Virus record (IMG/VR): IMGVR_UViG_3300025818_000050 | Coordinates: 1 to 39,396 of that record | Origin: a virus | Length of the DNA: 39,396 nt | Reading direction: 5' to 3' (one strand) | Shown: in pieces, positions 10,216-14,580 of the stretch | Numbering within the stretch: position 1 is the first letter of the stretch | How the letters are laid out: every line of letters starts with the position of its first letter | Made by a program: the position numbers and the translations under genes | Notes under the pieces: generated by a model | Databases searched by the model: none | The model's input: the letters and a program-made list of their open reading frames with translations, nothing else | Told to the model about the DNA's origin: nothing

Positions 10216-12753
10216 TCAGATTATGACGGTCGTGCCCTTTCCTTGTATTCTTCTTTTAAATTCGTTATCGACCGCCACAACCGCCTCGCTAGCCATTTGC
10301 TTGCCGTCAATATATACTTTAACATCAATATTTGTATCTTTTTGGTTTTGTGCCGCCATTTGTGGTGCTGGCGCTGTTGTTGCATTATTGTTGGCGGCAG
10401 CAGCGGTGACCATTACGGCTGCTGCTCCAAGTTTCAATGTATCGACGCCGTTGATGGCGTCCATAATAGTCTGAATATTAGTAGCAACTCCATCGGATGT
10501 GACTCCTACATCTACACCACCCATTTTTGATAACTCTTTAATGGTATCTGTATTAATCTCATTCAGCGCGCTAGCAACAGAAGATATTCCAGAAGCCATT
10601 GCAGCCAAACCAAGACCCGCTGCTGCAAAGCCAGCAGAACCAAGCACAAGTGTGCTAACGAAACCTGTAAAGAGTGCTGTATTCTCGGCGTTCATTGCGC
10701 TAAACATCGATGCAAGACCCTCTCCCATATATCCGATACCAGCGGCTGCTACGCCTATACCACCACCAATCAATAATATAGCAGCACCAAGACCTAACAT
10801 TGGGGCAAAGGCAGCCTTACCAGCAACAGCGAGTCCTACAAGGGCGACGCCGAAGATCAGCATCGTGCGCATTAGTGCGTTAATTGCTTCATTAAGTCCA
10901 GAGATCTGCTCCGCACTCAATGACGAAAAGGCTTCAGCCAAGTTTGCTAAACCATTTGCAGCAAAACCAATTCCGGCAGCAGCCATACCAATAGCCGCAC
11001 CAAATGCGAGCGTTGGTCCGACTAGTTTGGACATGCCTGTGGATGCAATTGGTGCGCCTTTTCCGAGAACAACAAGTTGTGCTACCCACATACCAAGAGC
11101 ACCGGCACCCTTAAGAACTGTAAGTGCGATAAAACCATATAATATCTTATCTAAATGCGGTATCAAAAAAACAACAAATTTTGTAACATTAACAATACCC
11201 TTACCAAACCGTTGTATCGCCTCTTCATTTCCTTCCAGTTGTTTTACTAAGCCTTCGAAAACATCAATAAGAGGCGTAACAACCGGTATCATGCTAGCAA
11301 GTAGAGACTTAAAGCGCTCTTGAATATTTTGAATTGATTTTGTTCGTTCTTGAAGAGCAAGAATCTCATCTGATGATTTCTCTGTTGCTCCTGCTAGTGT
11401 ATCAAAGTTCCCAGACATTAAAAGCGCGAGATCAGCGGTACTTTCAATACCTTCGATAGCGTTAACATAGAATTTCTTTTCAAAGTAATCCATATCGTCA
11501 AATGTCTTACCTGTTCTCAACACAGCATCACGGATCATCTCAAAGCGCTTGGCTGGCTCTTTCGCCATCATAAGATCCATAGCATTAACAAAGTTACCGC
11601 CTAGCGCAGCGTTAAGTCTACCTGCGGAGGTGGCGGCGTCCTCAAAAGTATCAAAACCGTCTGAAATTGCTATTAGTTTTTCTATTTGCAAGCCGGTTGT
11701 CTTTGAGACAACAGCCAGATCTTTAAAGGCATCCACACCAGAAGCACCAAATGCAGCCACTTCATCTCCAGCGGTAACAAAATCTTGAGCCATCTGTTGT
11801 GGAGTTACTCCAATTTGCATTGCTAGGGAGTTTAAGTCTCTACTAACTGCTGCGGCTTCTGCACCGCTCAATCCAAACGCCTTTACTCCAAGTTGAGTGG
11901 CTTTTGCGTAATCAGATAGGCTAACACCCTGCTTCTCCAGCAAAGCGCCTGTATTCGCAATGTCGCGCTGGTTTTGTTGAGACATAAGAGAAAACTCGGA
12001 CATCTCGCCGCGAAGTGCAGTGTGTGCTTTATAGACTTCATCTACTTGCACACCATAGAAAGCCATTGATTGAATATCGCCGCTAATCGCCTTAGCCATT
12101 TCTTCGGAAGCGCCAGTTGAAGCCATAAAGGACTTTGCTGCTTCATCGGTCTTGAATGCTAGGCTAATCATTGTATCTATAAGACCAAGTGCGACACCCT
12201 TTAGGGCGCCTATCGCTGCTTTTTGAAAGCCAAGTTGCCTTACTTGCTTAACCATACTAACAATATTTTGTGTATTTACCAGACTGTGTGTTTCATAGAC
12301 TTGCACGAGTCCTTTCATTGTGTTAGTGAGCGATTCGGTTGAGGCTATTTTTTCTTCGTCTGCTTTTATTGCTTTTTCAGTCTCTTCAATATATTTTTGT
12401 TTTTTTGCTATTAACTTTTTTACTGCTTCCTCTTGAGCGGCAGTGTACAAATTATTTTTCTGATTAATTTGAAGTGTGATTTGTGCTATTTCTATTTCAT
12501 TTTTTGCTTGATCTATGCCTATTCTTCTTTGCTCAGCCAATTTTTTTTCAGAGTCAGCCATTGCGTTGGCCACTTGCTCTTGGCGTTCGAGGGCATCTGA
12601 TGTTTCCTTAAGGCCAGCGAGGTACTTATTTAATCTGTCGATAGATTCGGCGTCTCCAGTGGTAGCACCCGTTCCGGAAGCGCCAGCAGCACTATTAATA
12701 GCGCCAATGATAGCTGCTTTAATTGCTTCTAAATCTGCTCTATTGATAGCCAC
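10216..12753 (-). CDS. Tail tape measure protein
   Basis: An 845-residue tape measure protein that sets tail length and is ejected with DNA. Residues 1-150 are Ala/Lys/Glu-rich helices with coiled-coil character. The middle (about 170-480) is helical with many small residues. From about 530 to 720 it has several long hydrophobic Gly/Ala stretches (for example TLAFGAAIGMAAAGIGFAA and LLIGGGIGVAAAGIGYMG) typical of tape measures that insert in the host membrane. The start is GTG at 12751-12753 with AAGGAA upstream. I see no good ATG alternative nearby. A terminator and a promoter-like ACTATTTA element lie directly upstream, so it appears to be uncoupled from the preceding tail genes. No peptidase or lysozyme domain was seen. 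Confidence 0.9.
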   Translation of the reverse strand: MAINRADLEAIKAAIIGAINSAAGASGTGATTGDAESIDRLNKYLAGLKETSDALERQEQVANAMADSEKKLAEQRRIGIDQAKNEIEIAQITLQINQKNNLYTAAQEEAVKKLIAKKQKYIEETEKAIKADEEKIASTESLTNTMKGLVQVYETHSLVNTQNIVSMVKQVRQLGFQKAAIGALKGVALGLIDTMISLAFKTDEAAKSFMASTGASEEMAKAISGDIQSMAFYGVQVDEVYKAHTALRGEMSEFSLMSQQNQRDIANTGALLEKQGVSLSDYAKATQLGVKAFGLSGAEAAAVSRDLNSLAMQIGVTPQQMAQDFVTAGDEVAAFGASGVDAFKDLAVVSKTTGLQIEKLIAISDGFDTFEDAATSAGRLNAALGGNFVNAMDLMMAKEPAKRFEMIRDAVLRTGKTFDDMDYFEKKFYVNAIEGIESTADLALLMSGNFDTLAGATEKSSDEILALQERTKSIQNIQERFKSLLASMIPVVTPLIDVFEGLVKQLEGNEEAIQRFGKGIVNVTKFVVFLIPHLDKILYGFIALTVLKGAGALGMWVAQLVVLGKGAPIASTGMSKLVGPTLAFGAAIGMAAAGIGFAANGLANLAEAFSSLSAEQISGLNEAINALMRTMLIFGVALVGLAVAGKAAFAPMLGLGAAILLIGGGIGVAAAGIGYMGEGLASMFSAMNAENTALFTGFVSTLVLGSAGFAAAGLGLAAMASGISSVASALNEINTDTIKELSKMGGVDVGVTSDGVATNIQTIMDAINGVDTLKLGAAAVMVTAAAANNNATTAPAPQMAAQNQKDTNIDVKVYIDGKQMASEAVVAVDNEFKRRIQGKGTTVII

Positions 12754-12786: not shown

Positions 12787-12813
12787 AAAAAAAGACAAGG
12801 TTTTACCCTTGTC
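12787..12813 (-). terminator. Intrinsic terminator between the gp51-position frame and the tape measure
   Basis: GACAAGG pairs with CCTTGTC around a six-base loop, followed by seven T on the minus strand. The TAA stop of the preceding gene at 12803 lies inside the loop, so a terminating ribosome would cover the stem. It isolates the tape measure gene from the upstream transcript. Confidence 0.85.
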
Positions 12814-13057
12814 CATATTTTTTGCTAAATGTTTGTGGCATTTGCGGTTGATTGCTATCAGACAATGTGTATGATTGCGAGTTTCTTCCGCCTTTGCTCT
12901 TAGAGGCATTTTCTATTGCTTCTTTTTCTGCTTCTAGTTGTTTTACTAGCCTCTCAACAAACCACTTACGCAGACCTATAGGTAGGTTATATGCTTCCGA
13001 TAATGACCAGCCTCCTGAGTATTTTAAGAAGAAGAACTGCTCATATACGTTCTCCAT
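12803..13057 (-). CDS. gp51-position small tail protein, possible frameshift product
   Basis: A small helical protein of 84 residues if started at the ATG at 13057. The core reads YEQFFFLKYSGGWSLSEAYNLPIGLRKWFVERLVKQ, followed by a polar Ser/Gln/Asn-rich tail. It holds the place of T4 gene 51, after gene 26 and before the tape measure, which is also where other tails encode assembly chaperones. The open frame continues upstream through the end of the gp26-like gene to about 13138, but the only start there is a TTG without a ribosome binding site. The ATG at 13057 lies four bases after the gp26 stop and also has no clear binding site. Expression is thus by coupled re-initiation or by frameshift at the T7 run (13076-13082). 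Confidence 0.7.
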   Translation of the reverse strand: MENVYEQFFFLKYSGGWSLSEAYNLPIGLRKWFVERLVKQLEAEKEAIENASKSKGGRNSQSYTLSDSNQPQMPQTFSKKYGQG

Positions 13058-13061
13058 ATAA

Positions 13062-13928
13062 TCAGGTGTTAGGCCAAAAAAAGTCTGCCGTAAGTGGCAC
13101 CTCCAATTCACTTTCGTAATCACACTCTGAACATTCAAAGTGTTGAGTTAAATCAACGTTAGGGCTAGCTGCCTTATACGCATTACGAAGGTGACGCACG
13201 TCTACTGATGGAATGTTTTGTACAACATAGTTGACTGCCTCTGATGTTGTATTTCCGTTAACTGCTACAATCATATTAACAAGTTGTCTTGTAACGTTCT
13301 TCTCGTGTGTTCGCTTGTTCTTGCGATCAAGTTCGATACCTTCAAGAAGAAACTTCTCATCTGCTCCCGTCATGATCTTGAATGTAATTTCTAGACCTGT
13401 TCGGGGGAGACGAGTAACAAATGTTCCGTTGCCTGTGGGGGTTGTGTCTATTCCTTCATCGGCTAAGTCGTCTCCGGAGTAAACACTGGCTTTGTTTAAG
13501 TCAAAACTGTACTCTTGTGCTGTTGCGCAAGAAGGACACGTGACTTTTGTGTTGTAGTCGTTGCCATATGCTGAAATACGCGCTGCAATAATGAGCGCGT
13601 TTCTATCACCGACCAATAAGCTATCAGCGTTGATGCTTTTATCGGTAATAATGCTGCTAAGAACTCTGTCCAAAGCAACTCCCTTTCTAAGCAATGACCT
13701 AGAAGTCAGCATATCCTCTTCTTTTGCGGTCATTTGCTTAATTTCGATTGAGTCTCTGCCGTGCAAGGGATGCCCTACTGGGTAGAAGGCACCTCTTGAA
13801 GGTAGATCCACGATCTCCGTTGGAATGATGAACGAAAAGTCACCACTCTCTGTGTTTTGAGCTAATTGTTGTGGCTCGGCAGTGTCTGAAGTAAACTGCG
13901 AGCCCAACCTATCACTATTTCTTGACAA
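13062..13928 (-). CDS. 26: T4 gp26-like baseplate/tail assembly protein
   Basis: A 288-residue member of the T4 baseplate gp26-like family. After a polar start comes the family signature: LPSRGAFYP, HPL, then IEIKQMTAKEEDMLTS (about 42-76), followed by GVALDRVLSSIITDKSIN and LLVGDRNALIIAARISAYG. Two CxxC pairs (C131/C134 and C266/C269) suggest a zinc knuckle. The start codon is TTG at 13926-13928 with a strong AGAGGTG site five bases upstream and no nearby in-frame ATG. An extended -10 promoter lies about 33 bases upstream. Its last codons contain a run of seven T that could shift ribosomes into the next frame. In the analogous place other tails have chaperones expressed by frameshift. Confidence 0.85.
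   Translation of the reverse strand: MSRNSDRLGSQFTSDTAEPQQLAQNTESGDFSFIIPTEIVDLPSRGAFYPVGHPLHGRDSIEIKQMTAKEEDMLTSRSLLRKGVALDRVLSSIITDKSINADSLLVGDRNALIIAARISAYGNDYNTKVTCPSCATAQEYSFDLNKASVYSGDDLADEGIDTTPTGNGTFVTRLPRTGLEITFKIMTGADEKFLLEGIELDRKNKRTHEKNVTRQLVNMIVAVNGNTTSEAVNYVVQNIPSVDVRHLRNAYKAASPNVDLTQHFECSECDYESELEVPLTADFFWPNT
13076..13104 (-). other. Candidate frameshift site: T7 run with upstream internal SD
   Basis: Near the end of the gp26-like gene the frame reads GAC TTT TTT TGG. A +1 or -2 slip on the seven T at 13076-13082 enters the next frame (TTT GGC CTA) with no stop before 12803. An internal GGAGGTG (13098-13104) lies 17 bases upstream of the run and could pause ribosomes. The shift is predicted, not shown. 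Confidence 0.4.
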
Positions 13929-13989: not shown

Positions 13990-14580
13990 CTATGATTGGA
14001 AAAATGTGCTTTGACCATCACCAGCGGTAGCGCGTGAAGGACCACCGGGGGTTTGAAGTCGTGCCCAGTCGTATCTGATCTCAAGGGTCATCTCAACCAA
14101 GTCATCATTTCCATAAGCCATGTCGCCATACTTCACGGTTGTAATGAAAGCGTTCCAAAGAGTCCACTTCTCAATCTCGTTACCGTCGCCATCAATTTGT
14201 GAGATGTAAACTGCACCGAGAGCGCCTGCTGATTTTGCCTTCGACATAGTACCGAGTGAGTTCGGGTTAGAAGGAGGGTTGTAGCCAGAAAGGTTAACAA
14301 TATCTGAAAGTGTAGCGGACATGTCGGGATCACGGGGATCAACAAGAGTCATACTAATCGGATCCCAAGTCACGGTACCAGGATAGTAGAACGTGTGGTT
14401 CAAGTATTGGTGCTCCGATGTAGCAACAGAAAAGGACGGCTTGTTCACTGACTTAGCATACCAGAGAAGAGAACCTCCTTGTGGCGCACTAATTCCTGTG
14501 AATTCTACCTTGAACCTAAACTGACGCTTAGGATCTTTGAGTTCGGTGTTTTCGGCAAAGTTGTCTGACCAGAATGGCAT
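13990..14580 (-). CDS. 19: Tail tube protein (gp19-like)
   Basis: A 196-residue tail tube monomer of the T4 gp19 type, forming the inner tube through which DNA passes. Its start, MPFWSDNFAENTELKDPKRQ, leads into FRFKVEF. SVNKPSFSV, then NHTFYYPGTVTWDPISMTLVDP (about 45-82), and the end AYGNDDLVEMTLEIRYDWA fit the single-sheet tube fold, in which a strand pair and a DPR loop recur. Length is close to the family norm (about 160-200). It directly follows the sheath gene, the universal order in contractile tails. It has its own ACTATTTA element and a TAGGAG binding site, consistent with very high, separate expression. Confidence 0.92.
   Translation of the reverse strand: MPFWSDNFAENTELKDPKRQFRFKVEFTGISAPQGGSLLWYAKSVNKPSFSVATSEHQYLNHTFYYPGTVTWDPISMTLVDPRDPDMSATLSDIVNLSGYNPPSNPNSLGTMSKAKSAGALGAVYISQIDGDGNEIEKWTLWNAFITTVKYGDMAYGNDDLVEMTLEIRYDWARLQTPGGPSRATAGDGQSTFFQS

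Follow-up and report, generated by a model that had tools for sequence, protein, structure and literature searches.

How is the second of two adjacent tail genes translated when it seems to have no start of its own? The question arises in the 39-kb record of a marine virus of bacteria (IMG/VR IMGVR_UViG_3300025818_000050, 39,396 nucleotides (nt); the whole of this stretch is called the window below), in which a gp26-like gene on the minus strand is followed by a gp51-like open reading frame (ORF). An earlier note on this DNA, made from the letters alone, had proposed that a programmed frameshift at a run of T residues joins the two frames. Comparison with relatives supports this proposal as by far the best explanation, and the gp26-like gene and the next ORF very probably constitute one tail assembly chaperone (TAC) gene with a programmed +1 ribosomal frameshift.

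The 3' end of the gp26-like gene reads GCA GAC TTT TTT TGG CCT AAC ACC TGA, and the run of seven T before the stop is present at 13082-13076, as the earlier note had described. The next ORF occupies the +1 frame relative to the gp26-like gene, and this frame, which a -2 shift would also enter, is indeed open from the run to its TAA. The -1 reading at the run is TTG GCC TAA, with a stop after two codons and no -1 slippery heptamer in phase (C_TTT_TTT). Because the -1 reading meets this TAA at once, only a +1 or a -2 shift can join both frames. Neither of the possible starts of the second frame, TTG at 13138 and ATG at 13057, has a ribosome site upstream.

Conservation of the slip site and the overlapping frame

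About 180 relatives were compared, more than half of which were retrieved by the upstream gene alone. A close set of 80 IMG/VR loci was retrieved with the second-frame protein; because such a query could bias the junction, a far set of 100 loci was retrieved with gp26-like proteins alone. The slip site and the overlapping frame are kept in 80/80 close loci. The junction was seen in 96 of the far loci, and in 89 of the 100 the +1 frame runs uninterrupted past the stop and a YTT_T(GG/AC) site is present, in the forms TTT TTT TGG CCT (52), TTC TTT TGG (15), TTT TTT TAC (13), TTT CTT TGG (5) and minor variants. One of these 89 (L120) has a +1 ORF that ends after 7 codons, and it probably has no second domain. 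The remaining seven of the 96 comprise three in which the site is A_AAT_TTC and the next frame is -1 (L139, L161 and L162), two with a separate gene (L180 and L185) and two whose downstream frame is apparently broken (L092 and L159). The next frame is also +1 in all of the isolates Mel-JY01 (TTT TTT TGG), Flavobacterium immuto (TTT CTT TGG), SP-15 (TTT TTT CAC), GXN1 (TTC TTT CGT) and RM378 (TTT TTT TGG). A sequencing error in the T run is ruled out by conservation across hundreds of independent contigs plus isolates.

Selection was assessed in 46 non-redundant close relatives (<90% nt identical, window included). The Phe-Phe codons are TTT TTT in 45 and TTC TTT in one. Synonymous conservation peaks over the last 12 codons of the gp26-like gene, its first codons excepted, and both results go far past what chance would produce. 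Past the run, all 46 have the same +1-frame residues G, L, T and Y, encoded by varying synonymous codons (CTG/CTA, ACC/ACG/ACA/ACT, TAT/TAC), whereas the 0-frame residues that overlap them differ (P/T/S, D/N, R/A/T/Q/S). Since the +1-frame residues are fixed where the 0-frame residues vary, the +1 frame is under selection from the run to the ATG at 13057. The earlier note had suggested that homologues be examined for conservation of the run, for purifying selection in this interval and for a start with a ribosome site; the slip site proved to be conserved and the selection present, and many relatives, like the window, have no credible start.

A hairpin upstream of the slip site

Directly 5' of the slip site, the message is predicted to fold into a short hairpin. 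In the window, its energy is -5.2 kcal/mol, against -1.0 kcal/mol for synonymous shuffles. Across the 46 close sequences, the six codons before Phe-Phe average -6.2 kcal/mol against -1.1 kcal/mol for the shuffles and are the more stable in 46/46, whereas control windows in the gp26-like gene (n=42) show an excess of -0.11 ± 0.19 kcal/mol. GAG, CCG and GCG codons are conserved 5' of the run, in a stretch that often contains stops in the +1 frame; CCG and GCG contribute the wobble bases of the CCGC/GCGG stem found in most relatives, and the stem of the window is shifted (TGCC/GGCA). Among 39 far loci that are <72% identical, the site has an excess of -1.98 kcal/mol, and the background of -0.08 ± 0.16 is reached 5 codons upstream. 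The excess recurs at the +1 sites of a further search (n=63, overlapping the earlier far set) but is absent at 29 non-redundant T_TTT_TTC -1 sites. Downstream structure does not discriminate, with a mean z of about -1.4 at +1 and -1 sites alike in a measure that is not codon-aware.

The earlier note had drawn attention to an internal GGAGGTG 17 bases 5' of the run. It is present and conserved, although the spacing of GGAGGT is 16 bases, an immaterial difference. Its GAG codon is used in 46/46 close relatives, as compared with 42% GAG use in the gene, and this Shine-Dalgarno (SD)-like sequence, directly 5' of the hairpin, exceeds synonymous expectation (energy below that of synonymous shuffles). 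A weaker SD-like signal lies 22-26 nt upstream in the far loci. The hairpin, which the earlier note had missed, is the stronger of the two elements, and it probably drives the +1 skip.

The role that we infer for the hairpin follows from work on constructs, in which 70S ribosomes shift more to +1 and less to -1 when a hairpin lies adjacent to the E site, where it takes the place of an internal SD duplex (Huang, Cho and Chang 2018, PMC6321510). Most ribosomes would complete the 0 frame and produce the short form, TAC-N (288 aa). In a fraction of those reaching GAC UUU UUU UGG, the P-site Phe-tRNA would re-pair one base downstream, from UUU to UUU, and reading would resume at GGC CUA ACA to yield the long form, TAC-NC, whose gp51-like C-terminal domain would be helical and ~90 residues long. 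While Phe-tRNA occupies UUU and the A site holds UGG or UAC, the hairpin would, by analogy, refold just behind the ribosome, beside the E site, where it would aid a forward slip and hinder a backward one; the GGAGGU in front possibly helps. While comparison supports the frameshift and its +1 direction, the effect of the hairpin on shifting is thus argued from these constructs.

The same gene pair is also found with the opposite shift. Cyanophage-like relatives (L191, L275-L354) share the homologous Phe-Phe codons but differ by a T_TTT_TTC_G heptamer read at -1 (80 loci), by a GGAGGG ~9-10 nt upstream in a dnaX-like layout and by having no excess hairpin. In a tree of 64 gp26-like proteins, the A_AAT_TTC -1 clade (support 100/100) lies inside the +1 group, the deep order being unsure with long branches, and the separate-gene pair L180/L185 groups beside Flavobacterium immuto. 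L180 and L185 no longer have the slip site, and their second gene starts at an ATG of its own; here, the frameshift has been lost in nature. Two further loci, LR756511.1 near 4700 (L086) and Stenotrophomonas phage RAS14 near 2730 (L194), have the pair at -1 with the in-phase heptamers G_GGT_TTT and T_TTT_TTT, respectively. On balance, we lean towards a natural, widely conserved +1 class in which a hairpin refolding behind the ribosome is the main stimulator, and in which the direction at one gene pair has switched several times together with the stimulator (hairpin for +1, SD at ~10 nt for -1).

The more doubtful but still serious alternative accepts the frameshift and regards the hairpin as the by-product of another constraint, with slippage arising from the internal SD, the run of U or slow decoding of UGG or UAC. 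The invariance of GGAGGT in the close clade would suit it, as would several of the points in the next paragraph; the excess in 46/46 of the close clade, its position-specific peak in divergent loci and its absence at -1 sites speak for the hairpin as stimulator.

Several observations weigh against our reading of the locus. About two thirds of the far loci are individually non-significant for the hairpin, and a few have none. No fixed-register compensatory change (covariation) was found in the hairpin, whose codons are constrained, and the case for it therefore rests on the comparison with shuffles and on the same structure arising from dissimilar sequences. The end of GGAGGT is 16 nt away from the first Phe codon, the hairpin standing between them, and the A-site codon, UGA in Escherichia coli prfB, is UGG or UAC here and not a stop. 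Because the second-frame peptide served as the query for the close loci, that set is biased, a bias from which the far sets are free; locus counts are not independent, since the phages behind them are related and most loci come from metagenomic contigs. As to function, the best solved match of the first-domain model, the HK97 TAC (2OB9), is weak (E 0.37, prob 0.66).

Other routes to the second frame

Apart from a +1 shift, the second ORF might be an independent gene, translated from the ATG at 13057 by translational coupling or reinitiation beside the gp26-like stop. This ATG sits 4 bases past the TGA and is kept in 43/46 close relatives, and in L180 and L185 the second gene is indeed separate and starts at its own ATG. 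However, the ATG is replaced by ATA or ATT in the other three close relatives and has no ribosome site in the window, and the residues G, L, T and Y before it are invariant in the +1 frame. Moreover, in 37/89 far loci, no ATG, GTG or TTG occurs between the upstream stop and codon 12 after the site. In many far loci, the frame opens just 3-5 codons 5' of the slip site; in L066, L072 and L074, a stop in this frame lies 4 codons upstream and the first start comes only at codon 18. An independent gene is thus very improbable.

Hardly better placed, and if anything slightly worse, is a Mu-like -2 shift at the seven T, which would add one extra Phe. The earlier note had treated +1 and -2 as equal options; either does open the same frame in the window, where the seven T permit re-pairing two bases back, but the site variants favour +1. 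The P-site codon can re-pair one base 3' (YTT_T) in 89/89 far +1 sites, whereas re-pairing at -2 is impossible for a P-site CTT or for a TTT after TTC. The +1 shift is preferred because the TTT CTT TGG and TTC TTT TGG variants fit it only; TTT CTA in L083 can likewise re-pair at +1 and cannot at -2. The upstream hairpin should also hinder backward movement (PMC6321510). RNA polymerase slippage on the T run, giving a mixed mRNA pool, is scarcely credible, since the seven-T homopolymer of most relatives is replaced by TTTCTTT in five and TTCTTTT in 16 far relatives, with a longest run of three or four T, and since the in-phase codon position and the hairpin are conserved.

The chaperone pair and known frameshift systems

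The features of the locus are collected in the table. PF12322 matches the gp26-like protein at 68.3 bits (cut-off 24.5), and it matches T4 gp26 as well as T4 gp51, of which residues 147-246 match phrog_634. In the second domain, phrog_634 was matched in 1/58 relatives, at 0.0015. The two halves were modelled separately, not as a fusion; the second domain is predicted to be helical, with a model similar to Gp51 of Prochlorococcus phage P-HM1 (TMt 0.81, although E is 0.35). A sequence search of the PDB gave no meaningful match, and profile comparison against the single T4 gp26 and gp51 sequences was weak. The pair lies between a tail tube gene and an ORF at the tape measure position, a tape measure gene is annotated at the equivalent place in Flavobacterium immuto, and portal and terminase genes are found further along the window. 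From family and position, the pair would thus be a TAC, and by analogy with lambda gpG/gpGT both forms would load the tape measure protein and recruit tube subunits.

Table. Positions of the slip site, its flanking elements and the neighbouring genes in the window
Feature	Position	Strand	Remarks
gp19-like tail tube gene	13990-14580		upstream of gp26-like gene
gp26-like gene, putative short TAC-N (0 frame), 288 aa, TTG start	13062..13928	-	PF12322 E=9.8e-19; phrog_150 baseplate hub E=3.7e-19; AF2 model pLDDT 92.7
GGAGGT, conserved internal SD-like sequence	13099..13104	-	16 nt before run
Hairpin TGCC-ACTTAC-GGCA (most relatives CCGC-N5-GCGG)	13086..13099	-	directly 5' of slip site
Slip site GAC TTT TTT TGG	13074..13085	-	predicted +1 shift after second TTT (13079-13077), T 13076 skipped
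0-frame stop TGA	13062..13064	-	
+1-frame continuation (GLTPDYMENV...), gp51-like C-terminal domain of putative long form TAC-NC	12803..13075	-	stop TAA 12805-12803
845-aa ORF, tape measure by position only	10216-12753		downstream of pair

The TTG start of the gp26-like gene (13926-13928, minus strand) is preceded by GAGGTG. An intrinsic-terminator-like hairpin, GGACAAGGGTAAAACCTTGTCT, followed by a T run (12793-12814, minus strand), overlaps the second-frame stop just before the gene at the tape measure position. The second domain shows a sub-threshold likeness to DUF6760 (PF20546), at 17-20 bits against a cut-off of 27 and with E<0.01 in 15/58 relatives; it is seen in the window at 12803-13075 (minus strand) and in L066 at 2059-2310. 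DUF6760 occurs in bacterial contractile injection loci, and the same frameshift might occur in those that carry it. A scan of genome contigs with SP-15 gp26 found no relative, and the plasmid collection gave no match.

These results support the view that the gp26/gp51 pair of the T4 lineage is a TAC, made by frameshifting in many relatives, whose second half stays hidden in public annotations, where it is cut short or left out. In SP-15, LIS04 and RM378 (L085, L087 and L089), the annotations omit the second half or begin at an internal codon; a 39-aa fragment is annotated in SP-15 and nothing in LIS04. The pair also offers a natural recoding experiment, in which the shift at homologous Phe-Phe codons is +1 beside an upstream hairpin in one group and -1 beside an internal SD in another, and the determinants of direction are therefore testable by swapping short elements in a reporter.

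TAC frameshifts are -1, -2 or +1 in different phages, with a likely +1 case in the archaeal virus HSTV-2, and long-tailed phages other than T4 conserve the frameshift (PMC5009743). T4 encodes the short and long chaperones as separate genes (PMC10885494), which the matches of both T4 gp26 and gp51 to PF12322, and of the C-terminal part of gp51 to phrog_634, fit. The earlier note had held that frameshifting of T4-like gp26/51 had not been shown before. This stands for experiment, but the prediction had been published: as far as the citing papers tell, frameshifting of the pair in some T4-like phages was proposed by Vladimirov, Gautam and Davidson 2022 (via PMC10885494, PMC12846349), with poly-T signals described as -1 (PMC12846349). 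The shared N-terminal part of the short and long forms and the poly-T motif are thus common to those phages and the window, whereas T4 itself has two genes, and the window has a +1 site with an upstream hairpin. In the open-access literature, we found no prior report of these +1 sites, their hairpin or their contrast with -1 sites, which are the additions made here, although Vladimirov et al. 2022, seen through those citations, may already list +1 cases.

Among the other known systems, lambda gpG/gpGT belongs to a different protein family by sequence and shifts -1 rather than +1, and the Mu-type -2 shift requires a P-site re-pairing two bases 5' that fails in relatives with the CTT or TTC-TTT variants. 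E. coli prfB, which encodes RF2, shares with the window a P-site YUU followed by U, the +1 direction and a duplex beside the E site, and the CTT_T of some relatives is the prfB pair itself. The prfB SD is closer to its shift site than GGAGGU is here: it lies about 3 nt from the shift codon, while beside the slip site of the window stands the hairpin. In the constructs of Huang, Cho and Chang 2018 (PMC6321510), to which that demonstration is confined and from which RF2 was left out, a hairpin beside the E site replaces the SD duplex, as the hairpin of this gene pair would do in nature.
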